This document shows positions 2,750-46,442 of a DNA stretch of 64,000 nt, one piece after another. The position numbers and the translations under genes were made by a program. The stretch lies in the NCBI GenBank assembly GCA_944472135.2, contig OX235268.1:8314589-8378588 (forward strand). The letters are read 5' to 3'. How positions within the stretch are numbered: position 1 is the first letter of the stretch; every line of letters begins with the position of its first letter. The notes under the pieces were generated by a model. It made no database searches. It had not been told where the DNA came from and was given only the letters and a program-made list of their open reading frames with translations. Origin of the DNA: Trichobilharzia regenti. Lineage: Eukaryota > Platyhelminthes > Trematoda > Strigeidida > Schistosomatidae.

Positions 2750-5700
2750 ATGATGGGATTTAGTATTTCAATACTTGGACTCTGTATAATATTTCTCGCA
2801 ATTCTATTAAATGAAGCCAATGGTACGTTTCACAGAGTATTTAAAAATACCAGTGACAGTGTCACATATGGTTGTTATCTTTAAAAAAAATATTCTGCCT
2901 TTCGTCACACTACGCTACGTAACACTAACTGATGACATGGGCACAATTAGGCGAAGATGAGGCGTTTCAATATGAGTGGGGTTCAACTCATGTGAGGACG
3001 ACTGAATATTCTACAGGCTGAAAGTGATGGTATCACAAAGAGTATTTACTCTGTAACAGTTGTTTCCACATATCGATTATACTCAGCACCAATTAAGCAG
3101 CTTATGTAGGGATCAACTACAGCAGACATTTAATCTCATACACGACTTCCTCCTACCTGATTTATATGCGTCAATTTATTCACAGTTTTCTCCATTCTCT
3201 CCATAATATCTCAGGTCAGCAGCAAGCAGGTAAGTGAAAGATTTTTAAGAATAATACAAAACTGATTTATGAAGTACATGAGCACCTGCTTGTTAGTGAT
3301 GAAGTTAAAAGGATACTAACAGTGTGAATCCCAAGTCAACTACAGAAAGACTTTTTTCATGATTTGATTTTTATGAATAAAGACGATGGACGAATATCAG
3401 TTAGAAAACCAGTGAAAACTTTCAGACAGACCTGTACAGTTGTTTCGTTCTAGTTTAATAATCATTGGCAGCCCACTCCATCTGCCATGGTTTGAATCCA
3501 GGATCTTTCAGTTACATGGCAAGCTCGTATACTATTCAGCCACCGAGATCTGATATAATAGCCAGTTTTTGATTAAGCTCGACCACCGACCAGTGTTATC
3601 GGTGAGACATCCGTTCTCATACTTGACTCAATGGACCTCATTAGTCACAACTTCTCAATGGAACTCCTGAAAACTCCGTCAGTTTTGTAGCAAGTCACAC
3701 TGGAATCATTTTGATGAGTCAATTAATTAATTTTTTCTTGCATTTCCTCAATAAAATTTCATCTCAGCCAGTCAGTAAGTGACAGCTTTTTTAAAGTTAC
3801 ACAAAATTGATTATTCAAGTACACTGACAACATATGACGAAACACCTGCTTGTTTGCGATGAAATGTAAATAGTGCTGATATTCGATTTTTAAACTTTTA
3901 TTATTATTATTACTCCCTTGGGTTCCTAGTGGAACATAGGGCTTCAACTGCACGTCTCCATTTGCTTCTGTCTCCCTTCTGCTGTACTTTTCACCTGCAT
4001 TCATGTTAGTCAATACTCCTTCAACTCCTCTTCACACGATCTTCTCGATGTCACACTCGCAATGACGTCACACACGCCGCTCTCCTTTCGGGTTCCACTC
4101 GAGTAATGGCCTGACGCGCGATGTTACCCAGCGGTCTCCTCAGCGAGTGTCCGATCCATCTCCACTTTCTACTGCATTTTTTTGGGGGGATTGGTTCTTG
4201 CTTTGTTTGTTCCCATAGTTCCTTGTTGGTTATTCTTTGTGACACACCAAGTTTCTGATCCGTATACAAGAAGTGACTTTACGTTTGTATTGAAAATCCG
4301 ACTGAATTTCGTTGTTGATGCTGAGTGACGAAGATTTCCAGATTGAATAAAGTATAATCATATTTCGATAGTTTACACACAATGATAAGTTTTGTTATTC
4401 GTAATATTTCGAGCAAAGTTACTGCCCGTGTTCACACCACTGATTGAATTCAGGTTGTTGGATGTGTTTCTCGCGATTTGACATCCTCGTCCGTTCCGAC
4501 CTCCTGTAGTTGAGACAATTATCAATGCTAGATAAGTGAATGAAGTAACCTCTTTCAAATCCCTCCCGTTATTGGTGATTGACGCTGTTGTTGTTGGCTG
4601 GTTGATTATTTTCATAACCTCCGTCTAGTTCACCTATGTTCACCTGGAGTCCTGTCTTCAATTACTGCTTCTCCGCCCAGTTTTTCGATCGGCTTCCGCT
4701 TGAACGTCTTCGATTTTGTGTGATATCAAACATAAATCATCCGCGAAATCCAGGTCTTCTAGGTTCTTCACCTCGGTCCAGGATATTCCTGTCTTCACGT
4801 TTCCCACTCACTGTGTGACCCATTATCCAGTCAACCACAATTAGGAATATCATTGATGATAATAAACGCTCTTGCCTGACTCCTGTGTTTACTCCAAACG
4901 CCTTGCTGAGTCTTCCGTTGTGGATCACTTGACATGCGCCGTTGTCGTACAGCTGTTGAATGACGTTGATGAATATTTGGGGTACGCCGTAGTACTCCAG
5001 TAGTTTCCAAATTACTTGGCGGTCAACGCAGGCTGTCGAAGGCCTTCTCAAAGTCTATAAAGTTGAGGTAAAGATTTGATTGCCATTCCATGCTTTGTTC
5101 TGTGATGATGATGCGTAGAGTTGCAATTTGGTCAGTACATGATTTGCCTGACTTTCCTGAATCCAGCTTGTTCTGGTCGGAGTTCTGTCTCCAGTGCGTC
5201 CTTTAATCTCTCCAGGATGATGCGACTCAGGATTTTACTTGGCGTCGAAAGGAGAATGATTCCTCGCCAGTTCTTGCAGAGTGAGGCATAAGTCGCACTT
5301 CTTTGGTGGTTTCACGAGGTAACCCTTCCTCCAGTCAGTAGGCACCTTTCCCTACTTCCAGACCTTTTGCAATAATGGAGTCAGCATGTCTGCTATAGTC
5401 TCTCGGTCCGCTTTCAGTGCTTTAGGGATATTTCATTTGGTCCAGAAGCTTGGATGCATTCAAGACTTCAGCTTTCGTCGGAGGATTTAGGTCAACTTGC
5501 ACTTGTGTGCGCGCTGTTGTTGGTATTTCTGGACGGGTTGCAGGTGATGGTCGGTTCGAGAGTCCTTTGAAGTGATCCGCCCATTGTTTAATCTGTTTTT
5601 CTTCCTTGGTAATTGGGTTCCCTTGGCTGTCTTTTATAGGTTTCGCTTGTGTTGATCTCTTCCCGGATAGAGATTTGGTTATCTGACATAATGTCCTCAG

Positions 5701-8700: not shown

Positions 8701-11700
8701 AAGGTATTTCTCTGTGGTATACACCAGCTTGCATATTGATCACGTAGTTCTACCACGGATCATTCATAAATGCAGCAGTATGCGTTGAGGGGAAGTAAAG
8801 CGACGAACACACAATATGTGACGATTGAAAATTACGGTACGTTTGTCCTCTGAATTCTAATTCGAATTCAGATATTTTCCATGCATCTGAAATGTGAATC
8901 GAAGACCTCAAAGTTCATTCAACCGACCTTACACCACCTCACCTAAATTTCAGTAGTGATAATTTTGACACGTTGTGCACGTTTTTCTACCTCAGTCATT
9001 GATAATCCTAATACGTGTTTGGTTTTCAACAGCATCCACGAGTTTATATTTTTAATTGGAGCTTTTCTTAGTTTCGAGTTTGATGAGTGCTGGTTAGCAC
9101 TTGTTTACGTGTCAGAAACTAAAGTCAGCTTTTGATATCAGACCAATTTATTTCATCATACATGCAGGGGTGAAAGATTTTCAGCGATATTACCTAACTG
9201 TATGTTTACATACAACTACAAAGAAATATTTGACGTGTTGAATGTGAACACACAGGTTAATCACTGGATGTTTCATCGAATTCCGGATCCATGTAAAATC
9301 AAATTTAGATACACTTGGGATTGAGGCCCCTGTGAATACGGTCCTTTCAATTTTGAGCATGAAAGTGTCATCCACTTAATACTTCTGTATCAAAATTTGT
9401 TATATAAACTTACATAAAATGCCCACAACTAAGACTTACAATAATAACTTCGAATACATGCGATCCTACGTTATTCATTGTCAAAGTGTTCCCCAATCAC
9501 TAATAGAGGAGCTGTATTCTGTCATGGCTGGTGATTGACCCGTCATTTTAGTTTATACTGTGATTCTAACAAAAAAACTTCATTCCGTCACCTCATTGTT
9601 CTGTATACAGTGATCTTCAATTTGAAGTAAGTACAACAAGAGTTAATTCTGCAATGCCTTTTCATTAAATGTATAGCAACTTTGAAAACATGCATCATTC
9701 ATACGGATAATAATTAGTCTTGTCTATTTTCCGATAAATAAACACGTGTTGGGTGAAACCGGATTTTGATCGGTTATTCCCTGAGAACTTCATCAGACAC
9801 TTATGAATATGAATCATGTTTGCTAGCACTCAGTGATACACTCTGGATTTTCAACCTGTTTGAATAGTTTTCCGTGGAAATATGTAAAATAGTGAATGTC
9901 ACTAGTGGGCTGCAACACTCCAGATTCCAAAGGTATCTGTTCCAAGTAGTTTTTTCTCGGATTTTCTTTTTTGTGAATTCGTTTGACAATTAAGTGATCG
10001 GTGTTTTGGCAAATCACACATTCTAATGTAGTGGATTATATCGTGTGAGCATCAGTTGGTGGGAAAATATTAACTTGAATTCTAAACTGACAAAAGTATT
10101 AGGACATGTAATATTCTTACTGAGAATCGTTTGAAAAATCTGAGTAAAATATCTAGCAGCCGTGCGTACAATGAGTTCGTGAATTCATTATGGCGATTTT
10201 GTGATATATTTGTACAGTCAATAGAGCGATTCTGACCATCAATTCAGTGGTGCGAGGCGTATTAAAAGGGTATGAGAAGCTTAGGCTTACTGCCTTTTTT
10301 GATGTTCAGGACATTCTTGAATAAAATCCTTACGTTACACTTAGTCTTAGTTTGTTGACAAGTTTTACAAATCTGTTCGCCTCAAATGTGACTACGTTTT
10401 TTGAAGTCAGCAGAAAAATTGTGTGTCTCATTTTGGATAGGGTGAACATTTTAATTCTCCCTATTGTATATCACAGAATTAGTGTCGAAACAGAGTTCAT
10501 GCTTCTATACACGTCGCATATCAAATTTGAGAAAATTTATCCAAGAAAAGCCTAGACAACTCCTGGTATTCGAAGTCTGTATTCACGATTGTCTAACGTG
10601 CATGAGGAAGGCTCATGCAAAACCACTGTTACTCTCATACTTCCCCTATGATTCGAATATGCACGAGTGTAAGCCAGAATCAGAGGTTTCTCAACCAAGA
10701 TATTCGCAATGAAACTTGCTTTCTGTAAAAGCGATTTATTCACGTAATACAGTATTCCAATGTTCACCTATACATTTGACTGTTGCTAAAATTCCTCAAA
10801 ATTTGTCAGCATTTTCAATGATCTACTTAGGATGTCTGGAAGACTAGAACTTCAACAGTCACCATAATGCCACCATTTCATTTTCTCTACAAAGTGAGTT
10901 GATAAAATCGATAAACTGTCAATTATGAAAGACAACTTAAAAGAAAATTGTCCACACAAATTCCTAGCAAGGACCTATTCATGATTGGACATCGTGTATG
11001 AGTTTCTCCTTAGATAACCAACGGTGTAGATGTCTGTGTTTATATTTGTCTGGTGGAATATGCCGATCTCTTGTTCAGATTATTTTCTAAACTAAACGAC
11101 ACATTGATTTTACCTCCCTTCTCTTTATTTGAATTTGGATCCTTGTAAAAATCAAACGTGATACTGAAGTGAATCATAATTAGATTTGGCAATGATTCAT
11201 TTAAATGGAGGACCATAATTGATGCTTGAGTGAGATGTTTCAGTCAATTCACGCATAACTGGGCAGCTACCAGTGAATAGACAACTGCCTTTGTGGAAGC
11301 ATGACAGATTATTGACCACTTTTTGCACACAAGTATGCAATTTCTAATCAGGAATCTATCCAACTCTTAGGGAATTCCTTCTGGATATCTGGTGAGTTCA
11401 TTCAAGTACTTTGACGTTTCACTTCATTTCGATGTATATTGTTGTTTATTTACTCCCGGTGACTAAATAGCATGATAAAGACATCTGAAGTGAAATCCAA
11501 CACTGCGTAACTGTTATTTCTTGAAACAGTTAAACTGCGGGAAATTCAAAATGTATTCTGAGAATTATTACTCGAAAAAGTTCTAAAATCATTCGAATCG
11601 ATACCAGTCCACTTCAACACTACAATCCTTCGAATTTCCATTTGTAAAGTGATTTATTCATTTACGGAACAATTCTAGCCGTTCAGATGTTAGAACAGGT

Positions 11701-12521
11701 GGAGGCATTGTCTACTTAATTTATTATCTATCCTAAAGCATCACAGTATTTTGACTCCAATGTATTGAGGATGACCCCTAGCCTTAGAGGTTTCACACAA
11801 GATGGATTAAACCCTTCATCTAGAAAAAAGCTTAAGAATCACTAATTTATTCGTCGACTTGGAATGAATAGAAAATGAGTTCATCAGATCTATGTGAAGA
11901 AATTTCCGGATAATTGTAACGCATGGTGAAGTCAGAATATGTAGAACTGATATTGGTATGATTGCCTTTGAAATCTGATAATATTTAATTTATAAGGCTG
12001 GGCCTCATCAAGATGCTCAAGTCATATAATTAAGACAAAAATAATATGGGGATAGAATAACTCCACATTCCAATACTCAAACTTTTAAGAGACGCCCACA
12101 TTCATCTCAGAATAATCTTGACAGATATGGTGCACGTTTATAATTTGACTCCTATCAGTCACTAACCAAGTCACTGCAAGGTTGATTTCAAGCCTCGAAT
12201 CCTTCGAAATGAGGTAAGTCAGTGTGCTTCAGATTTATCAGCATAAATTCACAGGTGTCAGTCGGATAATAGCCGGAACAAATAAGAACAATGAATATTT
12301 TAAAATGTCTTCCATTTATTTATTTATTGAATATTGAACAAGTGATGAAGAAATTTGAATTGATTACATCGTTTTATGTGTGTAACTTTGTTTGCAGGAA
12401 AGCCTCCTGTTACCGACTAGTTGATACTTGGGGCTGCTTTTTAGATAAGCTGCCGCGAAACCTTGGAGGAAAAGATTCCACATGTTCATCTAATTCACCA
12501 CAACCAGGTGTAGGAGGATAA
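2750..12521 (+). CDS. Micro-exon gene (MEG) copy 1, secreted protein of about 82 aa in five exons
   Basis: Five exons: 2750-2822, 3215-3229 (15 nt), 9611-9626 (16 nt), 11371-11391 (21 nt) and 12398-12521. All have AG acceptors and GT donors, and the joined length is 249 nt, an open frame ending in TAA. Exon 1 encodes a signal peptide beginning MMGFSISILGL and ending NEAN at a phase-1 donor (gtacgt). The micro-exons add GQQQA, then VIFNL, then KEFLLDI. The last exon opens with a Trp codon shared across the junction and carries C-Y-R-L-V-D-T-W-G-C-F-L, then L-P, L-G-G-K and a further Cys. In-frame ATGs at 2693 and 2732 exist, but 2750 matches the other copies. Intron 2 holds a 3.3 kb RTE insertion. 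AATAAA lies at 12579. Architecture and secretion signal are typical of schistosome MEG proteins. The MEG subfamily is not certain, and more micro-exons may exist. Confidence 0.8.
3760..3780 (+). pseudogene. Degenerate duplicate of MEG micro-exon 2 in gene 1
   Basis: Acceptor ctcag at 3767 and donor gtaagt at 3775 enclose only 7 nt (CCAGTCA), which would break the frame. The intron after it matches the one after the real micro-exon at 3215-3229. Probably a duplicated and decayed exon. Confidence 0.4.
4051..5051 (-). pseudogene. Reverse transcriptase and C-terminal part of the RTE element, frameshifted
   Basis: Between 5051 and 4737 the minus strand reads V-I-W-K-L-L-E-Y-Y-G-V-P and an altered G-V-R-Q-E-R-L-L-S-S (normally G-x-R-Q-G-C-x-L-S-P). 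At 4615-4373 it reads the T-S-F-T-Y-L motif, and at 4269-4051 the RTE tail. Frames change several times, so no active enzyme is encoded. Confidence 0.75.
5422..6204 (-). pseudogene. Endonuclease C-terminus and RT linker of the RTE element
   Basis: 260 residues in the same frame as the endonuclease segment. They begin near G-A-D-V-G-A-D-H-Y-L-V (the end of the endonuclease fold) and run through a Lys/Arg-rich linker to P-P-T-K-A-E-V-L-N-A. The RT domain proper follows downstream in shifted frames. Confidence 0.85.
6289..6963 (-). pseudogene. APE endonuclease part of the RTE element
   Basis: An open stretch of 224 residues with endonuclease/exonuclease/phosphatase motifs: W-N-V-R near residue 29, G-I-C-E-S-R-W near 56, Q-C-Y-A-P-T near 131 and I-P-M-G-D-M-N-A-K near 165. 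It stops at TGA just before I-S-P-D-G, which continues in the same frame toward the next segment, so one nonsense change splits the original polyprotein. Confidence 0.85.
7942..7947 (+). CDS. Possible 6-nt micro-exon in gene 1 (optional)
   Basis: The sequence ttgaag, TGGATG, gtaagtga resembles micro-exon 2 and its downstream intron. If spliced it would add two codons (Val-Asp) and keep phase 1. The polypyrimidine tract is weak, so it may be a decayed copy rather than a used exon. Confidence 0.3.
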
Positions 12522-12578
12522 TTTATAGAGAAGGTATTCCATATTATTTAATTATGTACATGAAGCAAACAGTTGAAA

Positions 12579-14480: not shown

Positions 14481-14539
14481 ACTTACTGAAATGAATAGCG
14501 GATTTATGTTCTGACTGATCCCACTAAGAAAATTCTGCC

Positions 14540-27971: not shown

Positions 27972-30900
27972 ATGATGAGATTAAGTATTTCACAACTTGG
28001 ATTTCTTATCTTATTTCTCACAATACTATTGAATGAAGTCAATGGTAGGTTTAAGAGAGTATTGATAATAGTTTTGACAATATAATATGGTTATGCGCTG
28101 AAAAGCTATTTTGACTGCCATCACTAACTGATTATGTGGTCATAACAAACTTGCCGTGAGGTGTATAAGCTAAATGTAGGATGAGGTGTCATATTAAGTG
28201 AAAAGCAACAGCTTAAAAATGGGTTTCATGTTATGTAACCTTTATTTGCTCATTTAACACCATATATGTGGCTGATATGGATGCCAGCAACCGACATTTC
28301 ATTTAATACGTGAATGTTTCCTTAGAAATATGAATAAATATTGGTGTAAAGTAAGATGGGTCTAGGTTGTTCTTCACTATTATTTCCTTTTGTTTGTCAG
28401 GGGACATCAAAGTTACCTTTACTAATTAAAGACACATGGGGTGCAGTTAATTTGAACTCAATTTCAGTCGCCAGTCAACATCAGTCATGGAAACAATGTA
28501 CATCAAGGGGATCCAATTTTGATGTCATATATTCTGCTGGAGAACACCTTACACGTGCATGAGAAAGTTTCCCATTCACTTGGCTTCTCTCTGTATAGTT
28601 TAGTCTATCGATAGCACAAATGCCACTAACTACCAGATGTGGGCTTTATCATATGGCTGACTACGGATTCTTGTTGAGGAATTTGACTCAATTGATCTTT
28701 GATGGTTATTGAAAACGAGTTGTATTTTCGCAAATAATCTTCTCACACAGCCAATCCATAAGTCCCCTGAATGAAGGTTGGCTGATGAGGTTGAAATAAT
28801 CAGATGATTGCAAAGGCAAATATGCACCCTTAAAATTTTCTACATGCTCAGAGTTACCGAAGAATCACTTTACTCATAATTTACTGTATTCTCTTCATGT
28901 TTTAGGTCAAATGGCTGGTAAGTGAACACTTTTCAAGATATCATGCAAATGCAATTCATCTAATACATTGATCGCAGTTGATGAAACACCTGCTAGTTAG
29001 TAATGGAGTATATATAAATCTCAACAACACTCACCTGTTGTGTAGTAAGATCCTGTGAATGTTTCGCATCTAACATAAAGGTTCATTATATTATCCTGCA
29101 GAACGCAGATAAGAATTGACTGATTTTAAGGCAAAGTACACACAGTTTTGATTTATTTTAGTTGATCAGTTCATCTTTCGCAGGTATACGATCTGATCTT
29201 GAGTATTGAGAGAAGACAGCTAGCTGTTGATGAAGGTTTGTAGTTTTTTTGAGATGCTCTTTATGACGCGCCAAATCTCCAATCCGTATAGTAGCACTGA
29301 CTTCACATTGGAGTAGAAAATCCAGATCTTATTTTTGATGCTGAGTGCTTTTCGCCTTCACATAGACTTGAGATTAATGAAAGCCTGTCTTGCTTTGATA
29401 TCCTCGTCAGTTCCGTCCGCCTGTAGTTGAGACGATGCTTCCCAGGTCGGTGGGCAATGGAGGTTGTTTCTTTCAGGTTCCTCCCATTTATGCTGATTTT
29501 TGTTTGTTAATGTTTTGATGTACTTGAATTGATCAGTTCACCTTTGCGGCAGTGGAAAATTCGAATTCTGTCTTAATCAGATAGAATACCATACTACTGG
29601 ATTCACTTCACGTCGGGGTGATGGGATTCAGTATTTCAGTATTTGAATTTGCTATCATATTTCTCACAATTCTATTGAATGAAGTCAATAGTACGTTTAA
29701 GAGAGTATTGATAATAGTGGTGACAGCGTAATTTGATTATACTCTGGAAAATGATTCTCACATTCATCACTCCACAAAAGATCTATATCACCAACTGATA
29801 ATGTAGTCACAAAAAGTCATGCGTCAGGTGTATTAGCTAAATCTAAGATGAGGTGAAAGTTCGTACCAACATTGAAGTATCAGGCGAAAAGAAGAAAACA
29901 GCTTATATTAGGCGCACAAGTTCTATATCTCTTATTCCCTCATTCCTACAATATTTCAAATCACAAGTGTGGCTCATAAAGGCGCCAGTTACTGACATTT
30001 GATCTCATGCCTGAATTATTTATTCAAAATTTGGAAAGAGGAAGGATGAATATTGGTGCAAATTAAGATGGATCCTGGTTATCCTACATTAACACTATTT
30101 GTTTGTCAGAGGACGTTGAAGTTACCTTCTCATATATGAACCTGCTAGCTGTAGACACAGGTGGTGGGGTTAATTTGAACGTAGATCTAGTAGCCAGTCA
30201 ACATCAATCACGAAAACACTGTAAACCAAAGATCTCCATTGATGATTTGATACATTCAGCTGGAAAACCGCTGTCAAGTCCATAAAACAGTTTCGTGTTC
30301 ACTTGGTTACCACAAATTCTACCAGCTACCGTATGTGGGTTTATCTGATTAGATATGGATTCATGAGAGGGAGGTCAGTTTAACTGAACTTCCGAGGGTG
30401 GGGGGGAAACTGAGTTGTGTTTTCGCAGTAAGGCTTCTCAGACAGCCAATTCATAGGTTCCCTGAATGATGGATGAATGATGAGGTCAAAATAATCAACG
30501 AAAAATCGCAAAGACGAACATGCACTTTTACATTTTTTACGTGCTCACAAGTGCCATTTGATCTGTTTACTCAAAATTTACTGTGATCCTTCAGCTCAAG
30601 GTCAAATGGGTGGTAAGTGAACGTTTTTCAAGATATCATGCAAATGTAATTCACCAAGTACATTTATGCCAATTGACAAAACTCCCACTTGTTAGTTACG
30701 AAGCATATATGCACTTTAACAACACTCACCTATTGTGCAGTTAGATCATGTGAATCACTGGCATGTAACATCATGCTTCATTATTTCATCCTTGATAACG
30801 TTTGTGATAAGCGGCTGATGTTAAGACACAGAACACACAGTTTTGATATATGCCAGTTGACCAGTTCACTCTCTGTTAGCTACATGCATGAATGTTGTGG

Positions 30901-33900
30901 AAAATCCACTTCCTGTCGCAATCAAAAAGAATATCTTACTAGTTAGATTAAATCACTATTGATTACTGTCAAAATTACCAATTTGGATGATGTCTTTACG
31001 TCACGGCAGTATGGATACTGAATGATGCTTATTCAGTGTTCGGAGTCAGTCGGATAGTTGTCCAGAGTGTAGATTTCAAGCCTACTCCTATTCCTCAGGA
31101 ATGGGAATGCCCAACCTGCATGGGAATGATACTTCCTTAGGAGAATCGAGTATGCTGCACTCAGTATTGAACCATGAATCAAGAAACAAGTGTTTACATA
31201 ACAGTAGCCTTAAATGAGGGGTTCCTCCCTCCCAACAGAAACTCCAATTTTATAATGTCACGAAGAGTGATGGAACAAATTGTAGCATGACCAAAGTGGT
31301 TTACTATAGATATCAACATGAAATTGCTGTGCCGTTACATACGATTACAAAAGGGAATGTAACACGTCGAAAGTGGACAGGTTTTTGATAACATCGACCC
31401 CGAATACATAAAAAATTGTGCCTGGATAGAAGAGGGAATCAAGCCAAGTAAAGCAAGTTACTTGGTCGTATGGATACATTCATATGATTTTTAGAATAAA
31501 ATTGTCATCCAGTTATTACAACCTCAGGTCATTCTTTATCAGGGAGTTAGTCACTTAGTGTTAGAGGCATCATAATACGCAAAGATTGGTGATTAGTTCA
31601 GCATTTCACTTCATTTTGTCCTACGTATTCAACACTTCATTCCAAAACTTCTTTATTCTGTGTACAGTTATCTTCGATTTGAAGTAAGTGCAACAACAGT
31701 TACATATAAAATGTTCTTTCAGTAAATATGGATCAATATTTAAAAATGTTTATCGTAAACATCGAAGATTAATATATCATTTATATATTTCTCACACTAT
31801 AAACACATCAGTGTGAATAACTCGAAAAGATTCCACAGTTCTCTTCTTTATCTTGTTCACTGGCGATTTCATCTGAAACTTTTCAATATGAAATCAAAGT
31901 AATTAAACGGGTTGATAGGCTCTATTGTATTAACCTAATTGAATAGATTCTCCTGTCAACAGCAAAGGAATGCCTGTCATTGGGACTTTTTAACGCTACG
32001 GATTCCAAAGGTGTCTGTCGCAAATAAAAAACTCCAAGATTTGTTTTCAGAATTCAATTGACTACTAAATAATGCCTTGATAAATAACGAATTATTTCCG
32101 AATTGATTGTGTATTATGAGGTAGTTGTTTCGAATAAGTTACATATTTGTGTATCCATTCCACAAAGTGGAAGTTTACTTGTAAATTTATAGTAGTACAT
32201 GGGAAGGATGTAGAAGACGAAAAAGACTTAACCGTAGTGTTTTTCGGGACATTTCTCAATTTAATCTTCAAGCTGCACTCACTCGGAATTCTAAGGTCTA
32301 TGAAAAAGATTCACAAACCTATCAGTCTGAAATGTGATAAAATGTTATGAAGTCTATAGAACACTGTGGTTTTGCATTTTTGACAGTGGAACCATTTTCC
32401 TTATATCTTATGCTGAATCTCTGAATTACTGTTGAAAAAAGTGTTGACGCTTTTCATATAACTCCTTTGTCATAGTTGATTGAATTTACTCCAGGCACAT
32501 CGAAATAACTGTCGTTATTAGGGAAAAACTGGCAGGAAGTTCAAAGCACAGACTTAAGTTTGGTTAGCGTTCATGAGCAAGATATATGTGAAAGCCTCGT
32601 AAACGTGACACCTTCCCTATGCATCGAAACTGCACTGTTTCAATTGCAAGTCAGCGGTTACTCCTATAACATTCGCCGAATTAAAACCTGCTTTCTGTAG
32701 AACCGAATTATACACATTACATGTTAATCAGAAGGTTAACGGTGTAATCGATTGTTCCTCAAATCAGTGATCAAAAGGTGTCGATATTGTAAGTGGTGTT
32801 TTGAAGACTTCTGGAACAAGAAAACTCTAATGGTGTCACAAACTGGATATTGAGTATAAGTTTGTCTTCCGACGACAAACGATGTAGCTGTCTACATTCA
32901 CGTTTGACGAACAAAACCACATCGATCAGGTATCCAGTTTAATATCCAGATCAAATGACACATTGTTTTTAACCACTTACTCTTAAATATAACATGAGGT
33001 AAGACTGAATGAGCATTTGAAGTGGCAGTGAGGCACTTGTATAAATGATCATGATGGACGTGGGATTAAGACGCAGCAATCAACACACTTTTGACTGGAA
33101 AACAGAACACACTATTCACCACGTTTGTATTTGAGCTTGCAATTTCTAAACAAAATCTGTGTAACCCCTAGAATGTTTATTATTGATATCTGGTGAGTTT
33201 GTTCCGGTATTCATTCGTTTCACAGCATTTTGGCATATGTTTCTGCTATGTAACTACGGATGACCAAATACCATGAAAAACTTATCTGAAGTGAAATCAT
33301 ACATTATTCAACCGCCACTGACTGAATTAGTTAATCCAATTCATCAAGTGTCACCTACTGGAAACGTACAAGAATCCTGTAAACTTATACCAGCCTAATT
33401 CCCCTTCCTAAATCTTCGGAATTTCCATTTTCATCGCCAACTGGTGGATTCCAACAGCCTGAGTGTGTGATTTCATGACAAGTAATTTGAATAATGTCAT
33501 GCGGTTACTTGGAATTCAAAACTCTGGAATCCAAATAGGCCAAGATGTTGTATGCGTATTTCATCATGTTTCACAACGCACCGCAACAATTTTACGAGAA
33601 TTTATTTAGAATAACCCCCAAGTTCTAAGCGAATGTAAAACTTCTACTTGAAAATATTTTTACAATGTCTCATTTAACTTCCCATTTGATTATGAGTATG
33701 TAGCATCTAAGCGGAGAGACGTTCTGATAACTAAAAGTATTCATGAAGTAATAATCTGTGAGATTCATATTCGTATGAATGCCTATGGCGTCCGAAAAGC
33801 TGTCACTTATAATTTGATGTTTATTAACCCACTTAAGTCTTATAATTTAGTAAAGCATAACTTAAGAATTATATAATTATTCATTTGAGTATCATTTTCA

Positions 33901-34967
33901 GTCACCTGAGAATAACTTCGATTGATATGATGTACGTTTTTGATTTGATTACTACCCGCCACCAATACAATAACTATAAATTTGAAGTTAAGATGCAAAA
34001 ACTTTAAAGTGAAACCAGTTCGTTTTTTCCATACTTATCAATGTTAGTTGGGCAACAGTCGAAAACACGGAGTATGGTGAATACTTAAGAATGTTTGTTA
34101 GTTTTTTATTATTGTTATTATTGTTCCTTTGGGTTCCGAGTGGCAGATAGGACTTCAACTGCACGTCTTCACTTACTTCTGTCTTCTGCTGTACTTTTCA
34201 ACTGCAACCATATCAGCCCATACTGTTTCAACTCCTCTTCGCACGATCTCCTCCATGTCACCCTTGCACTGACGACCCACTCGCCAGTTCTCTTTCGGCC
34301 TAGTTCCACTCGAGTGATGGCCTGACGCCCAATGTCATTCAGTGACCTCCTCAGCGAGTGTCCAGTCCATCTCCAATTTGTCCTGCGTAGTTTTTGGGCA
34401 ACTGGTTCTTGTTTTGTTTATTCCAATAGTTTCTTCAGTATAAAGCGAAGACAATTGTTGGTAAAGGTCTATAACCTGTTGGAAATATTTCAATGCGTTG
34501 AAGTTTTTGTAGCAGTTTGGTTAAGTTTTGGGGGTGGAGTTACTAACAACAGGCCCCAAACCTCCCTCTTTATCCGGGCTTGAGACCAGCTACAAACTAG
34601 CGAGCTAATAATCTAGGCGAGATTTTTGATATTATTATGAAAAATTTAAAGTTAAGCCAAATCGATTTTTCCCGACTTATCACTGTAAAATCTGTGTCTC
34701 TTGGAAAACATTTGGAAACAGGAAGGATAATAAGTACTGAAGAATATTTATTCGTTATTTAATGATTACAAATAACCGATAACATAATTTGATGTGAATT
34801 TCACTGCTTTCCCAAATATTTTCTTTTTTTGCAGGAAAGCGCTTTGCTACCGACTAGTTGATACATGGGGCTGCTTTTTAGATGCGTTACCACGGGAACT
34901 TGGAGGAAAACAAAAAACGTGTATAAGTAAAATGAGTGAAAAAATGAAGTTAACATTTTCATTCTAG
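27972..34967 (+). CDS. Micro-exon gene (MEG) copy 2, secreted protein of about 83-84 aa, with duplicated first exons
   Basis: Exons: 27972-28044 (signal peptide, MMRLSISQLGFLILF..., ending NEVN), 28906-28917 (12 nt, GQMA), 31668-31683 (16 nt, VIFDL), 33172-33192 (21 nt, KMFIIDI) and 34835-34967. They total 255 nt in frame to TAG. An in-frame stop at 27951 fixes the start at 27972. A second first-exon pair at 29621-29690 and 30601-30612 can replace the first pair and also gives an open frame (252 nt if its GTG-codon position at 29618 is counted). The terminal exon encodes W-KALCYRLVDTWGCFLDALP, then L-G-G-K and T-C-I-S. The final intron contains a deleted RTE copy (34.10-34.63 kb). AATAAA motifs lie at 35160 and 35345. 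Phases match copies 1 and 3 at every junction, which is strong evidence for the model. It is probably secreted; function is unknown. Confidence 0.8.
29185..29525 (-). mobile_element. SR2-like RTE fragment upstream of the duplicated MEG first exon
   Basis: Closely matches 25.93-26.28 kb ('gacgcgccaaatctccaatc' and neighbouring blocks). It ends about 90 bp before the duplicated signal-peptide exon of MEG copy 2 and replaces the promoter-like block found before the other copies. Confidence 0.7.
29618..30612 (+). CDS. Alternative first and second exons of MEG copy 2 (duplicated signal-peptide unit)
   Basis: A second signal-peptide exon at 29621-29690 encodes MGFSISVFEFAII, then FLTILLNEVN, with donor gtacgt. 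The codon before its ATG is GTG, where copies 1 and 2a have ATG. It is followed by a 12-nt micro-exon at 30601-30612 (SQMG). The last base of the exon is A instead of G, turning the junction codon from Gly to Ser. Introns of this unit and the 27.97-28.92 kb unit are clearly alike, for example just after the micro-exon and around 28.4 and 30.1 kb, so about 1.65 kb was duplicated in tandem. The sequence directly upstream (29.18-29.52 kb) is RTE debris rather than the conserved promoter block, so its use probably depends on the upstream promoter or it is silent. Confidence 0.65.
34100..34627 (-). mobile_element. Internally deleted SR2-like RTE element in the last intron of MEG copy 2
   Basis: Has the 3' end of the 3.9-kb element at 34.10-34.48 kb ('ggacttcaactgcacgtctt') and its 5' end at 34.49-34.63 kb ('gggcttgagaccagctac'), with the middle missing. 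Flanked by direct copies of about 130 bp of intron sequence (33.98-34.10 and 34.63-34.75 kb). Confidence 0.75.
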
Positions 34968-37640: not shown

Positions 37641-37654
37641 ATACAATTGGTGAT

Positions 37655-37757
37655 ATTTTATTTATTTTATTTATTTTTGATTACAGCTTAATTCCACACT
37701 GTATTTTTGGTAAAAGTGTGGAATTTTCAGCGTGGATATTGGTAGCTCATAGTGACC
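37655..37757 (-). mobile_element. SINE tail fragment (same family, head missing)
   Basis: Carries only the body end and the A-rich tail of the 20.5 kb SINE ('ggaattttcagcgtggatat' on the plus strand). It is truncated before the tRNA-like head. Confidence 0.65.
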
Positions 37758-37951
37758 GTTCTCAATGGCTGGCGCAGATGCATCCACTCTTTATGACTTA
37801 TAATACCTAATAAAACTATATTGTTCCCCGATATTACTTTTCTTTCTGCCTCATATCTCTGTTTACTGCCTCCATTTTGCGTTTCTTTTAACTTTCGTTT
37901 CTGGCTTTGTGAGCTGAGTGAGGTGGGCTGATTCGAATCGCTACACGCCAA
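37727..37951 (-). other. Unassigned open stretch (74 codons) next to a SINE tail
   Basis: Open minus-strand frame with a Lys/Gln-rich beginning and K-E-W-M-H-L-R-Q-P near its end. It lies between repeats and overlaps the SINE tail end, so it is likely repeat-derived. I do not recognise it. Confidence 0.2.
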
Positions 37952-38393
37952 TGCAAAGTTCTGTTTGAAATCAGAGAGTTAGACAGACATACTGATTTCG
38001 GCTTTTGAAGGCCTAATACGTACTCTCAAGCCAAACCTCTTAGATTTTGCCATACTCAGCGTTAAAATGGTTTAACAAATACTTGAATCCACTTGATAGA
38101 AATGAAATTGGGACATATTCTCATGTCACAATTTAATTTCTTCTCGATTCACTTGGTGCCAGTTTCATCTGATCATCACTCAATAAAGTTAAATTATGAG
38201 GCAGACAATATTTCTGCAGGTCTCTAATACGGAATTGGCTGATTGACACGTATTCATTTTTGAATAAATTTCGGACATATAACCAAAGTCACTAAAGTTA
38301 GTATGATGACATATATTAAACATATTTGTTCAGTTAAAAAAGCACATTGTTTTCAAATCGAATAATCATGTTTACCAATAAGAAATGGTTGGT

Positions 38394-38526
38394 ATATAGT
38401 TCGCCAGTATAATTATGATCGAGATGCAGACATGCAATACAAATTGATACATTACACCACTAAAATGAAAATTTAATCAGTACCCTTTCATGTACACAGG
38501 AAGATAATAAAAAGAATTTCGAAGTG
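38394..38526 (+). promoter_or_regulatory. Putative core promoter and 5' leader of MEG copy 3
   Basis: ATATAGTTCGCCAG at 38394-38407 lies 133 bp before the ATG, matching copy 2 in sequence and spacing. The shared TATA-like start and 'acattacaccac' stretch suggest a conserved transcription start region. Confidence 0.5.
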
Positions 38527-41500
38527 ATGAAATTCAGTACTACTCTACTTGGATTTGTCATATTACCATTAACACTCCTATTACATGAAGTCAGCGGTAC
38601 GTTTGTGAGTATTGATGATAGTAGGGACGCTGTTACATTGTTTTATTCTGTAAAACCTTTTCTGACATGTAAAACTCTGCACTATACAACACTAATTGAT
38701 AATGTTTTCACAATATGGTGAGCCTTAGACGTACCAAGTTAATCTGAATGCAGCTGAACTCCTGTAGCATCGATGCAATATCCTATAGAGATGCATAAAT
38801 TATAATGTAATAGTGAATAGAATATCAGAGAAAATTAAAGAGATTTCTACATTAAATCGAGGGTCATTTAAAACCTTGATTGGCAGTCAAGGTGGGGATA
38901 TTGTCTAAACCAACTTCTTCTTTTTGATGTATAAGTTGGGTTTCTTAACGTAGATCGCAGCAGTCGGCATCAGCAATATGTATACTAGACGAACACTTAA
39001 GGCGAATTTAACATTAGTTGGCATACGGTAGATAACGTCGAATGACTCATTAATATAAATTTTGTGTTCTACACTCACGAAATGAGATAGAATACAGCTA
39101 TGAATGGATTTTGTTTGTTCTTCACGCAGGATGTTAACGAAGCTTCTAAAGTCACTAACCGCATACCAGTAAGTCTAACCTTTACCTTAAGTGTCCGTCT
39201 ATTACATATATTATTGGAGCCGGCTGTTATGATCTAAATTGAGAAGCCAAACACATATATATCCAAAAGAAAAATTTGGTTCAGAAAATGTCCTGACGTT
39301 GGCTGTCAATTAGGGTTTTAAATTATACTCAATCTTGTAAGAGAAAGATAAACCAGGTTTGCAGTAGACATTTCCAATAAATTAGAATGTAAAGCAACCG
39401 CACGCAGAATTATTTTCGCTAACTACCATTTGTTCATAATGATAATATCTAAATCATATGTGTAGCTTTTATAGGGAATAACCAATGACATTTGATTTCA
39501 TTCATGTCTTTCCCTTCATGAATTTAGAATAAGAATGAACAAACAGTAGTGCAGAATAAAATGGGTTCAGGTTATTTTATATTGACATTTGATATTGTTT
39601 GTTTGTGGGCATTAAATTTACTTTTTCATTTATGAATTCAATAACTAAAGATGTAGATTTGCACAAGTATTATATATGTATGTGGGTGTGGTTAGAGTGA
39701 ACGTATATCAAGTGGTTTGTTAACATCGAGAATGTCAAAACTGTAGACCAAGAATCTCTACCTGCATTCTTCTGGAAAACAGCTATCAGAGTTTCTAATT
39801 CACTTGGTTACTGTTAGTAAAATTGAGCAGAAATACGTGACAAATTGCAGTAACTACCGAATGTGGTAATAATTATTGGATTGTTTACGAATATACGAGA
39901 AGGAGGTTCGAGTAAATTAATCCTTCGTGGTTATCGAAACCTATTTGAGTATCTTCAATGATTTTTCAGGCAGTCAGCAGGCGCCTTGGAAGACAGGTGG
40001 TTGAATAAGTAGAAACATTTCAAACATTTTCTTTTTTTGCATGCTCAGAGACTTGGATGCGTCAGTTCATTCATACTCTCCTGCATTCTCTCCATAATTT
40101 CACAGGCCAAGAGGCAGGTAACTGGGTATTTTTGAAAACTTATACAGGAGTAGTTTATCAAACAGACTGATAGCAATTGAGAAAATACTTACACGTTGTA
40201 ATTTATACACCTCAGCAGTACTCACTCGTTGTGCAGTCAGATTGTAAGCATGTTTCGCAACCAGAAAAATGGCTCATTCTAGCTTCTTTAAAACCACTGA
40301 TAATTCATGGTTAATGTTAAAACTTGTGACACGCACAGCTTTGATGTATTTAAGTCATTCACGTCACTCTATTATAGCTGAATACACGCAATAATCCGAT
40401 AGTTTCACTATTTTTCTAGTGAGAAAAAATATGACTCTGATTAACTGAAATCGCACTTGCCTACTTTCGAATTTACCCAATGGCAAAGTCTCCTGGAGGC
40501 TGCAGTTGATATGGTATTGACATCAAAATGAGAATAAAGAAACACATTTTTCTCACGTCTGCGGACTTTCAAAGATATAGTTGTTAAAGGAGATACCAGA
40601 AGATAATATGGCCTCATTTTTCCTACTACAGATCCACTAAAACCTCAGCACTGTTTACTCATAAGAGTATAATATCAAACACATTAGAAGCTACAGTGTT
40701 TTGTAGTCGAAATTACAGTGACAGTTGATGTTATGTTTCATGTATCTGTAATATGAACAAAAGACTCCATAATTCATTCATCTGACGTTAACCCGACTAA
40801 CCAACATTTCCAGTTGAAGTAACGTTACATTTCAAATGGCAAGTCAGTGACAGTATAACTAACTTGGTATTTTATTAGCAAAAAAGGCTTTGTAGATTAT
40901 AAGATATTTGTGGCTGCTACAATTCATGTTTAAAACTCGAGAGAGTGTTTCATTTTCGATCAGTGCATTTCGCTAAACATATAAAGATGGAGTACCGATG
41001 ACAATACTGCGTTTTTATGCCAATTACATTCAAATACAAAGGAGTATGTGACGTGCCAAAAGTAGACAGAGACTTTTGCATTGAATCAACACAAGATGAT
41101 AAAGTAGAAATGACGAAATAGTGATCCTAGATTTATCGATAAATATATTTAGATCCAAGGAGGAGTGAAGCAAGTTAGGAAGTCGTGTGAATATGTATTT
41201 TCATAAGATTTTGAGGAATGAAGTATCATCCAGTGATCAACACTCTATCAATGTTTCTAACATAATATGAACTCATCTGATATGGAAGTTCACCCTAATA
41301 AAGTGACTGCGGTTAACGCTTACATTAACATTGTTACATAGTTTCCAATAAGGGAGATCTAATATCACTGACGACCAAAGAAGTCCTTATTTGTTTTTCA
41401 AAGTGACACAATATGCAGTGACTAATATATGCCCATCATTTCATTTCAATCTATGATTATTATCCAATACTCTTTCGCTACTTCATTATTGCAGTTGTCT

Positions 41501-44500
41501 TCAATTTGAAGTAAGTACAATAAGAGCTATTCCCAAAATGTTCTTTCAGTGAATATTTATCCCTTTTTTAAAACGTGTATCGTTAATACTAAAATAATTA
41601 GGTCTTGCATCACTTCTGCACAAAATGATAATAGTGCAAAAAACTTAAAGCAATTGACTGTCAAATGCCTTTTATTTATTTCGCCAAGTGAAACATTTTG
41701 GATTGTTTATTAGCTGAGAACTTCATCACAGTCTTTTGTGCATCCATTTCAATGTGCTGGAATCAGCTAAAAGGCTTAAGATTATTCTTAAGACTATTAG
41801 AGAAAACTAGTGAAAACAAAACGCAAGGCTCAGAGAAGTTTCGCTTTTCGACAGCGAACTCACTCAACTTGCTGTATAATAGTAATGAAGGATACCTATT
41901 TTTCTATTTGTGTGTACATCACTTTTATCCTATAAGAATAAAGATTGTTTCAGGTTTTTGTTGTCAAGACATTTCAGAAATGTGGTGAGTAATCAGACTA
42001 TGAATGGAGGTTGGTGAAGACTGATACGAGAGGGATGGTGATGCTTTGTAAAATACATAGTTAATAATGTTAATCAATTAGGCGTGTTTCTCGTTGGATT
42101 TCCGAACATAACTCTGCAAAGTAATTACGTAAAAGACAAAACAAAATCTATTCGCAGTGCTATTCTATCTCACTCATCTTGTGGATACAGAACACAAGAT
42201 TGATGTTAATAACGTGGCTTTCAGCGTCATTTACCGCATAACTACGAATCTCAATTTAGCCTTAAGTGTTCGACTACTAAATATTGATGAAGCTGTTAGG
42301 ATCTACATTAATAAGCCTAATTTGTACATCTAAAAGTAGTTAGTTCAGACATTATCATTACCTTGGCCATCCAGATTTGAGTGATCCTGAATTTTTGTGG
42401 AATTTTCCTAGTTTTATTTAGTATCCTATTTGCTACTATATGTTTTTTAATAATATTTAAGCTTCCTAATGAATCGTAATTCCATCGTGATCTTGCTTAA
42501 TAAATCGATATTATTTAAAAAACACTAATGTTGTCATTGACTACTAATCTAGAATATTCTTAGTGTATTAACATGTACATATAATTGTAGAGCCAGAAGA
42601 GGAGAATATCGAATGAATATTCTTTGCTCGATTATTTTGTGTTTTATAAATAAGAAGAAGTTGAATAAGTTTATTTCAGTTACGTAATAAAATGAATAGT
42701 CTAATGAGTGAGTTGTAAATAGGATGCACATAGAAACAAAAGAAAATATGACCTTATGTAAGAGTTCTACGAATTAAAAATGTTATAAGGAGTAATTAGA
42801 AAACAAGTACACAAATATCAAGTCAGCAGAAGTCAACATGGTTGTTGCAATGATTTTATTTTGTAAACCTAACTCTGGTTTTACCAAGTGAATGATCAAG
42901 GCTTCAGTAATACAAAGGAGACGAAATCGTATTTCCTTTCGTAGGTTGTTCTTCACTTTGTAGACCACTCTGAAGGAGGCGTTTGTGGAGATGGAATGAC
43001 CAGTGTTGACGAGGTGTTTGATGATTGCACTCATTTTTCAGCCAATATCGCCATTCTGTAGCCACATGGAATAGTGTCCTTAAACCCTTTTGGACAGGAC
43101 ATGGATCGAAAGGCCAATTTGCCTGGCTCCAAAGTAACATTTGAACATATATATGCACACAGAAGTGGCAAGATGCAAGATCTCGGTCTGAGGCTTCTGC
43201 AAATCAATAGACTGCTGAGAAACACTACTGAGAAGAATGTTCCTTTCAAAAATGCTGACATTTTGCTCTTGAGCATATCGCAATCTTAGTTTCCCTTGAG
43301 ATTCAGACTCATGTAAAGTATCTTCTTTGAAACAAGTGATCCTTTGTACCTTTGGACCTTTCAGTTGATATTCTTGTCGATGAATCTTTGTCTGTATCCA
43401 TTTTAGGTGAAGGTTTCTCTCAGAAGATCTAGTTCTACTTCGGGTCGTCAGGACTTCCGATAAGTCGGGTTCAAGTGGCAAGATATTTATTCAGATTTTG
43501 CTTCCTCTTAATAGGTACGCAACTGTAGAAACTTGTTTAATTGACTGTTCCAAGTAGGGTTCCTATTGATTGACCTTACTAAGATTCTGTCCGGTCGTCT
43601 TGTTAGTTTCACATCAGGAACGTGAGTTTCGGATTCGCATTCCATTTCTAGAGCGAATTTGATAGCCAGGTGCCAGTGTTCAATATTCATAACAATTTCA
43701 TCTACGTATCGTTTGCGCAATTGCGAATTGTCAATGCACTACAGAAGACAACTCGGAAGGAAGTGGTCGATAGAGGTGTACTTTATACATATTTTTCTCC
43801 GTATGGCACACAGTATTTTGCTACGTAGCTGCTACAACAATCGTTTTATTACTATTATGTATTGTGTATTTTTAATTGTTTTTTGTCGTTTTTGGGTAAA
43901 TTAGATGCAATATTGTACTGAAATGCTGAAAATTCCTTGCTGTATCATGAGTACTGTTTTTGGAATAAAGCAATTATTATTATTATTATTATTATTATTA
44001 TCGTAGTCTTCAGAAGTGTATACTGTGTCTAAATTTGTCTCCATAGGATGTGGCTGTTTTCTAAGCGTATAGGGTAAAATCCATCAGTCTCATGTTCAGC
44101 ATATTTTCTTAATCAAATGACACTTTGCTGACGGGCACTTACATTTTTTATTAAATTGACTCGTTTTTAAATCTAACATAAAACCAAAGTAAATTGCCTG
44201 ACTCAGTGATCGTGATATACGTGTGATTAACACACCTCAATCAAATCATAGAAAAGACACACGCGTTACCCAACGGATGCTAGTTTAATATAATGCAAGC
44301 GTCTCTGTGAAAAGATGGCACATTGTTTACCTCTATGTGGTTTTAAAGCATTCAATTTTAATCAGAAATCTGTTCAACTTCTAGAGGATTCATTCTGGAT
44401 GTTTGGTGAGTTTATCCGAGTCTTTGCACGTTTCCCTGCATTTAGATATGCGTTTTTGCCTTATTCCAACAGTCGAGAAAATATCAGTGAAAGCTTATCC

Positions 44501-46442
44501 GGAATGAAATATGAAGTTACGAAATCGCTTTTTATCGACACCAGCAAATGAACATTCTATTGACTGAGTGGTTTAAATCGCAATTTTCAATCTGTGTAGT
44601 CATACTCGTTCGACATATGTAACATTGCCATCCAGCAAAATTAACTTGTGAGAAACTGAAAAAATTCTCCTGACAAACACCATGTGACTCTCACTCGAAA
44701 ACATTTTGGAATCATTCGAAAGAACGTTATTCCAATTCATATTTGAAATCTCTCGTTTTACCAATTTGATAAAAGGCTGAATCACACCATGAAGGATTCT
44801 TACAAGGCCTAATCTACTCATTTTCTAATTCAATGGTATATAATTTGAATAATGCAATATGGTCATTTGTCAAATACATATCTGAAGTTAGAACTCGATC
44901 TGTTTTGTGCATACTCCATTACCAAAGAAAAGCTTCTTATCAAGCTTAAGCTACCACAATATTTTGACCACAAGATAATCCGAGCAGTCACAGCCTTAGG
45001 TATTATTCATATAAGGTTAAAACTTGAACACTGTGGTAGAGTATAACTCCATTATGGATAAGATTTCACTTTGTTAAATCACACAGTGTTATACAGTAAT
45101 ATTAACTGATGTGACGACGTTTCGAGCACAAACTATTGTTGCTCATAATCATATCAAGTCACTCACACAACTTCCTTGCTTCATTTATATACATGTGTGG
45201 AATTGATGATTAGATATTTGAATAGAAATCAAAATGGAATATTGAACATTCAGAAATAACAATATGAGTGTTATTGATCAATTACAATCAGATGGGAAAT
45301 TTTATATTTTTTATAATCATAATAAGTAACTTATTAGAGTGTTGTGATGCGGTTGAATTGAAATAGAATTTTAAGATTATTTATTATCCTCCTCCGATCT
45401 GATCGGTGGTAGTACTATTTATGGTATTTGTATTGATTCATTTCTGTTGCATGTGTTATGTTGGGTGTAGACTCAATAAACCAGGCAGGATTCAGTAATC
45501 AGTGTCTCTTCACGTACCTAGATTACTTCTTAGAATCTTCGCCCTTAACCTCACACCCTATAGTGTGGTTGTTTGTTAATGCAAGCAGTGCATTCACTCA
45601 AATATCTATTCAATTTCACACATCTGCATAAATGAAGTAAAATGTTGTGTTAGTGGCTTGATTTGATTATTAGCAATAGTTTATGTTCGAAAGGTGGTCA
45701 TCAGTTAATATTATTGTATAAAACTGTATGATTTGCAAAAATGAAATCTCATCTCCAATGTAAATCCTTAAGTGTTTCTGAGGATGGATGGATGGATGGA
45801 AAACTCTAAGTCAGCCGCCAATTTTAAATGAATACTGACTGTGATTTTGTAACTCCTAAATCGAAGAATGTCCTGATAACTGACATGTGTTGGTTTGATG
45901 CTCATATCATTGACGATTTTGTCACCGAAACCATCATTTTTTGTTGTTAGACTTATGAATAAGCGAACTTCTTATTTCTGAGGCGAAATCTATCTGTCAC
46001 TATGGAGCAACTTAACATTTCAGTAGTCAGACATCTAAGAAACCGTTTCTCTTGTCTAAGAATAACTTTGAGTGATATAATGCATCTTCTCGATTTCATT
46101 ACTGACCACCACTAACGTAGATAAATAGAGTCGCATACTTAAAAGTGAGACCAATTTGTCTGTTTCAGATATGTCAGCGCGAAAATCACAAGTGTCGATG
46201 GGGCAACAGTCAGTAATTGATAGATAATCAACACTTCATAATGTTTATTATTTATTTAACATTTACAAAAAACTGATGAAAGCCCTTGAATTGCTTTTTT
46301 CTCTTAACCCTATTCCCTTTGCAGGTTAGCCCTTTGTCTTCGACTAAATGACACATGGGGTTGCTTTTTAAATGCGTTGCCACCGTTGCTTGGAGGAAAA
46401 AATAGAACATGTATAAGTAAAAACAATGCGAGAACGATGTAA
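38527..46442 (+). CDS. Micro-exon gene (MEG) copy 3, secreted protein of about 78 aa in five exons
   Basis: Exons: 38527-38596 (signal peptide MKFSTTLLGFVILPLTLLL, ending HEVS), 40106-40117 (12 nt, GQEA), 41495-41510 (16 nt, VVFNL), 44385-44405 (21 nt, KGFILDV) and 46325-46442. The joined 237 nt are open to TAA. The first codon of copies 1 and 2a is GTG here, so the start is the second Met position. The terminal exon encodes W-LALCLRLNDTWGCFLNALP, then L-L-G-G-K and T-C-I-S-K. Cys and Trp positions match the other copies, while the tail after the last Cys differs. Introns 3 and 4 hold Penelope-like and LINE fragments (42.8-44.0 and 45.0-45.8 kb). A possible poly(A) signal AATAAA lies at 46550. 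Same caveats on subfamily and extra exons as for copy 1. Confidence 0.8.
42783..43750 (-). mobile_element. Penelope-like element fragment: RT end and GIY-YIG endonuclease
   Basis: Minus strand in order: R-Y-V-D-E-I-V (altered RT box) near 43700, P-D-V-K-L-T-R-R near 43600, and N-P-T-W-N-S-Q-L-N-K-F near 43540. Then a GIY-YIG core with C-Y-F-G-A-R-Q-I-G-L-S (normally C-x-C-G-x-x-Y-I-G) near 43130, and H-L-V-N-T-G-H-S-I with E-A-L-I-I to the end. Frameshifted and inactive, lying in intron 3 of MEG copy 3. Confidence 0.75.
43780..44002 (+). mobile_element. 3' end of a CR1-like LINE (5' truncated) with (ATT)n tail
   Basis: Matches the 3' end of the LINE at 55.9-56.1 kb: 'gcaatattgtactg', 'gctgaaaattcc', 'tttggaataaagc' and then (ATT) repeats at 43975-44001. 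Confidence 0.7.
43973..44001 (+). repeat. (ATT)n microsatellite at LINE tail
   Basis: About nine ATT units form the 3' end of the truncated LINE. Confidence 0.9.
45024..45765 (+). mobile_element. Non-autonomous element with long inverted terminal repeats (Penelope-associated)
   Basis: About 105 bp at 45056-45160 is inversely repeated at 45651-45756, for example 'aatattaactgatg' on the left against 'catcagttaatatt' on the right. The middle has no coding sequence. A second copy starts at 63.48 kb, and the ends of the Penelope-like element at 46.65-48.01 kb are related. It lies in the last intron of MEG copy 3. Strand is nominal. Confidence 0.6.

Follow-up and report, generated by a model that had tools for sequence, protein, structure and literature searches.

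The micro-exon genes (MEGs) of blood flukes face the host, and what they do is mostly unknown. Under the strict definition, about 80% of the coding region of a MEG consists of symmetric exons of 6–36 bp (PMC5825161); PMC4350168 likewise places most of it in such exons. The usual layout has two longer outer exons around central micro-exons of <36 bp, and the first exon carries most of the signal peptide (PMC4671649). MEGs 9, 12, 26, 27 and 28 have been proposed to act via amphipathic helices (PMC4671649, PMC5825161), and the helix criteria given for MEG-26 are a hydrophobic moment >0.4 and a net charge >3/−3 (PMC5825161). MEG-2.1 isoform 1, which runs to residue 88, has a helix after the signal peptide in molecular-dynamics simulation (PMC10526429, PMC10399815). 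In the bird schistosome Trichobilharzia regenti, four MEG transcripts (PMC6362228) and counterparts of MEG-4, MEG-8/9 and MEG-26 (PMC5825161) have been described. Here, we analyze three genes, A, B and C, in a 64,000-nucleotide (nt) window of the T. regenti assembly (C7:8314589-8378588; 954 Mb, 548 contigs).

The three genes represent a MEG-like family that is, to our knowledge, undescribed as a family, although proteins from B and C had been deposited earlier under no functional name. On balance, our data favor the reading that A, B and C are part of a T. regenti family that has grown into two clusters on one contig. We found no description of the family in the literature searched, whose coverage excluded supplementary files and most subscription journals, and the peptide DTWGCF gave no match in that literature search. 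The T. regenti MEG lists examined were compiled from resemblance to MEGs of S. mansoni or S. japonicum, an approach that could miss this family.

Results

Exon structure of the three genes

We observed five exons in the same order in genes A, B and C, which share one orientation in the window. All fifteen exons proposed in the initial annotation, with AG/GT borders and common phases, lie where it had placed them (Table 1). The 12 acceptors are all AG and the 12 donors all GT when read from the sequence, and the donor is GTAAGT or GTGAGT at eight of the nine micro-exons. The exons before the last one measure 73/15/16/21 nt in A, 73/12/16/21 nt in B and 70/12/16/21 nt in C. Reading the sequence also confirmed the annotated open joined frames (249, 255 and 237 nt for A, B and C), and the phases agree across the three genes. 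The 16-nt exon 3 is asymmetric and the 21-nt exon 4 is symmetric. The last exon is in phase 2 in all three genes, and the family last exon has three conserved cysteines. Exon 2 is 12, 15 or 18 nt long in the family where found, and the 15-nt type of gene A is also present in array copies g6 and g14.

For gene B, the five listed exons were confirmed but the set was incomplete, with an 18-nt exon 2b and a second exon 1 having been missed. The 5′ part of the gene is duplicated internally (29621-30868 vs 27972-29173), giving a second signal exon and exon 2b. The second signal exon is also found in copy g11 (C7:8381638 to about 8388343; C7:8381638-8383484 region). The last exons of B and C each contain a 41-nt stretch with intron signals. 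The introns of A, B and C share conserved blocks, which were considered as additional micro-exons; we did not call them exons because the borders inspected by eye were not AG/GT in all three genes. In the last long intron, one stretch is conserved (12099-12165, 33899-33965 and 46056-46115; 73% identity A–B, 77% B–C, about 67% A–C), which is possibly a splicing or regulatory element.

Micro-exons make up 52 of 249 coding nt in A and 49 of 237 in C (both 21%), and 67 of 273 (25%) in the six-exon form of B. With this share and an asymmetric 16-nt exon, the genes fall outside the strict MEG definition. They do have the general layout of longer outer exons and central micro-exons of <36 bp, a signal-peptide-like stretch placed in the 5′ exon by inspection, and frame-keeping micro-exon splicing in gene models, where the deposited proteins P0003 and P0006 lack the 21-nt exon. 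The initial annotation had called the genes MEGs; the micro-exon-type architecture stands, and no described MEG family was matched. Because micro-exons account for only 21–25% of the coding sequence, we describe the genes as MEG-like and do not assign them to a known MEG family.

Deposited proteins and splice variants

A profile of the A, B and C products was run against a database of 5.8 billion proteins, in which only candidates sharing short words were scored (71, 7261 and 356 candidates). The searches returned T. regenti proteins only, six at first and later the same six plus a seventh (A0AA85J703, J5R3, J4T0, J5Q6, IZD6, IY45 and J7Y7). In the part of the name shown, they carry no label beyond ‘uncharacterized’ or ‘secreted’. 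No relative outside T. regenti appeared in these searches, which need shared 5-residue words; under the same requirement there was no Schistosoma match, and MEG-26 was compared by description only. The protein search for a known MEG family that had been suggested earlier matched none among the candidates scored. Pfam gave nothing above its cut-offs for the A, B and C products. In PDB, the family profile had no match, and a single weak, unrelated one was obtained for B (E 1.7).

The joined gene C equals deposited protein P0001 (A0AA85J703_TRIRE) letter for letter. Gene B exons 1a, 2a, 2b, 3 and 5, with exon 4 skipped, give P0003 (A0AA85J4T0_TRIRE) exactly. Outside the window, exons 1–5 of g11 minus the 41-nt intron of exon 5 give P0002 (J5R3) exactly, which brings the deposited family proteins rebuilt exactly from genomic exons to three of seven. 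For the deposited proteins, six loci account for the last exons (B, C, g11, g6 and a pair in the first cluster), and the P0004 last exon is exactly that of g6 (C7:8291693-8297288). Most genes of the array were absent from the results of these protein searches. The gene A product was not returned by three protein database searches. The genes had been described as hidden, which is only partly true because UniRef/nr already contains the B and C products as uncharacterised entries.

The sole difference between P0005 and P0006 is a seven-residue block at the place of exon 4, which P0006 lacks. With the equivalent 41-nt stretch removed, the genes of P0002 and P0007 yield the ends of these two proteins, whereas P0001 and P0003 keep the stretch. 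Exon 4 and the 41-nt last-exon intron are thus optional in the deposited models. Because P0002 and P0007 have this intron's equivalent spliced out, the C-terminal tails of B and C may differ from the first reading. The family has three variable features: exon 2 length, inclusion of exon 4, and choice of tail in some copies. The expectation that the products are splice-variable was borne out by exon-4 skipping in the deposited B product and in the P0005/P0006 pair, and their secretion is probable. Transcript support likely stands behind the deposited gene models.

Extent of the array

A genome search with a first last-exon query (E up to 0.001) gave 31 matches, every one on contig C7 (7 at 7.249–7.390 Mb and 24 at 8.234–8.542 Mb). 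A second, looser query (E up to 10) gave 35 matches, 33 of them in the same two clusters; the two on C6 (E 2.8 and 9.4) were taken as chance. The second query added three places (E 0.07, 0.09 and 1.65) and did not return one place on the first list. Both queries combined give 34 last-exon places, three of them weak (E 0.07–1.65). The array counts rest on these two queries, and the genome match counts are lower bounds. The earlier view of a three-gene tandem cluster is right about tandem paralogues, and the number three is a windowing effect of a large two-cluster array.

We classed the 31 first-query places; the three extra places of the second query and fragments at 8262729 and 8299369 were left unclassed. 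An AG acceptor with a frame open to the third cysteine column was present in 21 of the 31, and 17 of these 21 open last exons have all three cysteines. In 258 kb around the window, fixed-length patterns matched exon 3 (16 nt) 14 times and exon 4 (21 nt) 15 times on both strands. Neither pattern matched in five mononucleotide shuffles, in which one strand was scanned. Exons 3 and 4 are ordered consistently with the last exons, and 14 array copies share the succession 3, 4, 5. The exon 4/5 junction rebuilds a split tryptophan codon in 15/15 copies of the 258 kb. Copy g2p has no exon 3 that we could find, and g12 and g13 have early stops. A strict pattern recovered exon 2 in 9 of 13 spans; in the 258-kb region exon 1 was unmatched for g1, g3 and g13 and matched only partly for g4. 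The gene trio is not a chance arrangement, because C and B equal deposited proteins and the exon 3 and exon 4 patterns recur against none in the shuffles. These are almost certainly members of a real spliced gene family.

Duplication history and selection

In each of the three A/B/C pairs, local matches of 69–70% identity begin upstream of the start codon and extend across exon 1, and apparently whole genes, not single exons, were therefore duplicated. In a tree of 15 last exons with flanks, B groups with g11 and g13 (92/87, not reaching the tool's star) and C groups with g12 (100/99, starred). Copies g13 and g12 form an inverted pair. Together, these groupings and the inverted pair suggest that blocks of neighboring genes were copied together.

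The ratio of nonsynonymous to synonymous substitution rates (dN/dS) among the window genes was 0.48 (A–B), 0.55 (A–C) and 0.40 (B–C). Pooled over 66 pairs of 12 copies, it was lower in exon 3 (0.21) and exon 4 (0.24) than in the exon-5 core (0.49); g2p (no exon 3) and g12 and g13 (early stop) were left out of the 15 copies. We observed 15 core positions invariant in the 12 copies; W, C, TWGC, GGK and the final C are among them. Beyond the last cysteine, the tails of A, B and C are hypervariable. Identity among copies reached 0.85 (exon 3) and 0.77 (exon 4), compared to 0.37–0.41 at 31–60 nt upstream, and it held near 0.65 over 45 nt downstream of exon 4.

Predicted peptide products

By inspection, exon 1 encodes the whole N-terminal hydrophobic stretch, and the products are very likely secreted. 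The helical hydrophobic moment was 0.40–0.49 over ~32 residues in seven sequences, a value reached by ≤0.006 of 2000 shuffles. The AlphaFold model of the C product has a low-confidence helix at residues 32–57. These products look like peptides with one amphipathic helix and three cysteines, and we consider the amphipathic helix itself likely.

A deletion series for the seven-residue cassette was set aside, its block being offset by one residue from what exon 4 actually encodes. In that series, deletions of 3, 4, 8 and 11 residues keep a moment at or above that of the full helix, so a length of seven is not singled out.

Features of the window

The coordinates of the exons and of an insertion in gene A are collected in Table 1. 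The direct repeats around the insertion are ~100 nt long, unusually long for a target-site duplication. The insertion has minus-strand open reading frames (ORFs; 4737-6963) that we take to resemble a schistosome endonuclease/reverse transcriptase of the type without long terminal repeats (non-LTR), and these ORFs had no Pfam match at E 0.01. Related pieces lie at 34109-34616 in gene B intron 4.

The remaining features lie elsewhere in the window. A type I hammerhead ribozyme at 58650-58694 scored 36.4 bits, above the Rfam gathering score; ribozymes of this kind are present in short retroelements of schistosomes. A further non-LTR retroelement has left remains at 52613-54376, with ORFs resembling an endonuclease and a reverse transcriptase; their weak Pfam matches (PF14529 and PF00078) are both below the cut-offs. 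A minus-strand ORF of 174 amino acids at 16687-17211 had no Pfam match at E 0.01.

Table 1. Positions within the window of gene A, B and C exons, candidate optional introns and one insertion.
Feature	Position	Strand	Basis
Gene A exon 1, signal-peptide-like	2750..2822	+	ATG to GTACGT donor
Gene A exon 2, 15 nt (GQQQA)	3215..3229	+	Borders, pattern
Retroelement-like insertion, gene A intron 2	about 3885-7176	.	Flanks 3780-3884 and 7177-7274 are 87% direct repeats
Gene A exon 3, 16 nt (VIFNL)	9611..9626	+	Borders, pattern
Gene A exon 4, 21 nt (KEFLLDI)	11371..11391	+	Borders, pattern
Gene A exon 5 with stop	12398..12521	+	Borders, open frame
Gene B exon 1a	27972..28044	+	Borders, deposited P0003
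Gene B exon 2a, 12 nt (GQMA)	28906..28917	+	Used in deposited P0003
Gene B exon 1b, second exon-1 copy	29621..29690	+	Also in array copy g11
Gene B exon 2b, 18 nt (AQGQMG)	30595..30612	+	Required for exact P0003
Gene B exon 3, 16 nt (VIFDL)	31668..31683	+	Borders, pattern, P0003
Gene B exon 4, 21 nt (KMFIIDI)	33172..33192	+	Skipped in deposited P0003
Gene B exon 5 with stop	34835..34967	+	Borders, P0003
Possible 41-nt optional intron in gene B exon 5	34927..34967	+	Retained in P0003
Gene C exon 1	38527..38596	+	Borders, P0001
Gene C exon 2, 12 nt (GQEA)	40106..40117	+	Borders, P0001
Gene C exon 3, 16 nt (VVFNL)	41495..41510	+	Borders, pattern, P0001
Gene C exon 4, 21 nt (KGFILDV)	44385..44405	+	Borders, pattern, P0001
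Gene C exon 5 with stop	46325..46442	+	Joined product equals P0001
Possible 41-nt optional intron, end of gene C exon 5	46417..46457	+	Retained in deposited P0001

Discussion

We propose a model in which each gene would be spliced in several ways and the peptides would be secreted from a gland. The mature part would fold as one hydrophobic amphipathic helix encoded by exons 3 and 4 and the start of exon 5, closed by the cysteine-containing C-terminus, which the cysteines would tie. The helix would contact host membranes or proteins, and the peptide would sit on or disturb host cell membranes, an action that we consider possible but somewhat doubtful. Skipping of exon 4 would remove seven residues, or about two helical turns, so the helix would be shortened with little rotation out of register. 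Gene duplication and optional exons would then yield a mixed pool of similar peptides. Tentatively, and with low expectation, we suggest that this is T. regenti's own large micro-exon family, in which each gene may couple three switches to give a combinatorial pool of membrane-active or host-binding peptides suiting an unusual host tissue. The switches may be exon 2 length, the two-turn helix cassette of exon 4, and the tail set by the 41-nt intron in some copies.

Several observations weigh against this model and the family behind it. The deposited products are gene models. The signal-peptide-like character of exon 1 was judged by inspection only. The exon-4-skipped form is less distinct from shuffled sequence (moment 0.33–0.44, shuffle fraction 0.015–0.086), and the helix has a net charge of −1 to 0, unlike the charged helices of MEG-12 and MEG-26. 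The C model has a low mean predicted local distance difference test score (pLDDT; 55.3). Variable residues were not clustered on one side of the helix; the observed value was equalled or exceeded in 3452 of 5000 shuffles, and a ‘variable exposed face’ is therefore not seen. In the array, 10 of the 31 classed last exons have an early stop (5) or no AG (5). The exon 3 and exon 4 patterns have fixed lengths, so copies with other exon lengths would escape them. The first exon of P0004 is absent from the 258 kb and unlike the one next to g6, which could reflect another haplotype, a first exon located elsewhere or an error in the model.

The peptides could instead serve mainly as antigenic decoys, with slightly different secreted forms diluting the host antibody response without any membrane action. 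Such a ‘smokescreen’ has been published as an idea for MEGs (PMC4350168), and the many paralogues, exon skipping, tail switching and strong variation beyond the third cysteine would suit it. A pure decoy need not keep the 15 invariant positions, however, nor a core under purifying selection (pooled dN/dS 0.21–0.49), and we regard this as unlikely to be the main role. A still smaller probability attaches to the array being mostly decayed, with little or no product. The ten last exons with an early stop or no acceptor AG, and the early stops of g12 and g13, would fit such decay, but pooled dN/dS is below 0.5, 21 of the 31 last exons are open with an acceptor, and three of the seven deposited family proteins were rebuilt exactly from genomic exons, which makes this reading very improbable.

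Whether the family belongs among the described MEGs can be weighed from both sides. It could be a strongly diverged branch of MEG-26, MEG-2 or MEG-8/9, given that MEG-26 comprises short secreted amphipathic peptides with T. regenti members and internal duplication (PMC5825161), and that a phase-2 last exon is common to MEG-8/9 and these genes (PMC5825161). This descent is improbable in view of the profile searches of 5.8 billion proteins, which found T. regenti proteins only among the candidates sharing short words, and of the six published S. mansoni MEG motifs (PMC10526429; one common to all MEGs and five of the red clade). None of the nine proteins matched any of these motifs under our one interpretation of the polar and hydrophobic classes. 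The MEG-26 signal peptide also lies partly in the first micro-exon (PMC4671649), whereas here it appears to lie entirely in exon 1. At the other extreme, the genes could be unrelated to MEGs and encode ordinary small secreted peptides with a few tiny exons, such as an egg or gland peptide not directed at the host. Five or six exons and a micro-exon share of 21–25% would fit, but longer outer exons, central micro-exons of <36 nt, an exon-1 signal and frame-keeping skips follow the published MEG pattern (PMC4671649, PMC5825161), and we give this explanation little credence. We retain the reading of a MEG-like family of T. regenti.

A family that has 21 open last exons and is, within these searches, confined to T. 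regenti would mean that the MEG repertoire is replaceable or expandable lineage by lineage. Such a family would also show that inventories relying on homology overlook it. The 16- and 21-nt exons, being so numerous, offer a natural test set for how the spliceosome recognizes very small exons. If the reading of coupled switches is true, the combinatorial peptide pool could serve T. regenti, a nerve-migrating bird schistosome, in an unusual host tissue.

Comparison with known micro-exon genes

The family resembles MEGs 9, 12, 26, 27 and 28 in encoding short secreted peptides with a 5′ signal peptide, central micro-exons and a predicted amphipathic helix. It differs in giving no sequence match to them in our searches, in a helix charge of −1 to 0 and in micro-exons that form the smaller share of the coding sequence. 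In character, MEG-26 comes closest; it is multi-copy with internal duplication (PMC5825161). The moment of 0.40–0.49 reaches the first part of the MEG-26 helix criteria, and the charge falls outside the second. A conserved-versus-variable helix face has been reported for MEG-26, and we found none in this family. MEG-26 also places part of its signal peptide in the first micro-exon (PMC4671649), a further difference from the apparent arrangement in exon 1 here.

MEG-8 and MEG-9 genes have been reported in T. regenti (PMC5825161), and their motif was compared by description only; like A, B and C, MEG-8/9 end in a phase-2 last exon (PMC5825161). The MEG-2/ESP15 cluster on S. mansoni chromosome 3 gave no sequence match to the family in our searches. 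It is similarly a tandem cluster of short secreted proteins (PMC10526429), with seven clustered blue-clade genes (PMC10526429 Table 1) compared to 21 open last exons in two clusters in T. regenti.

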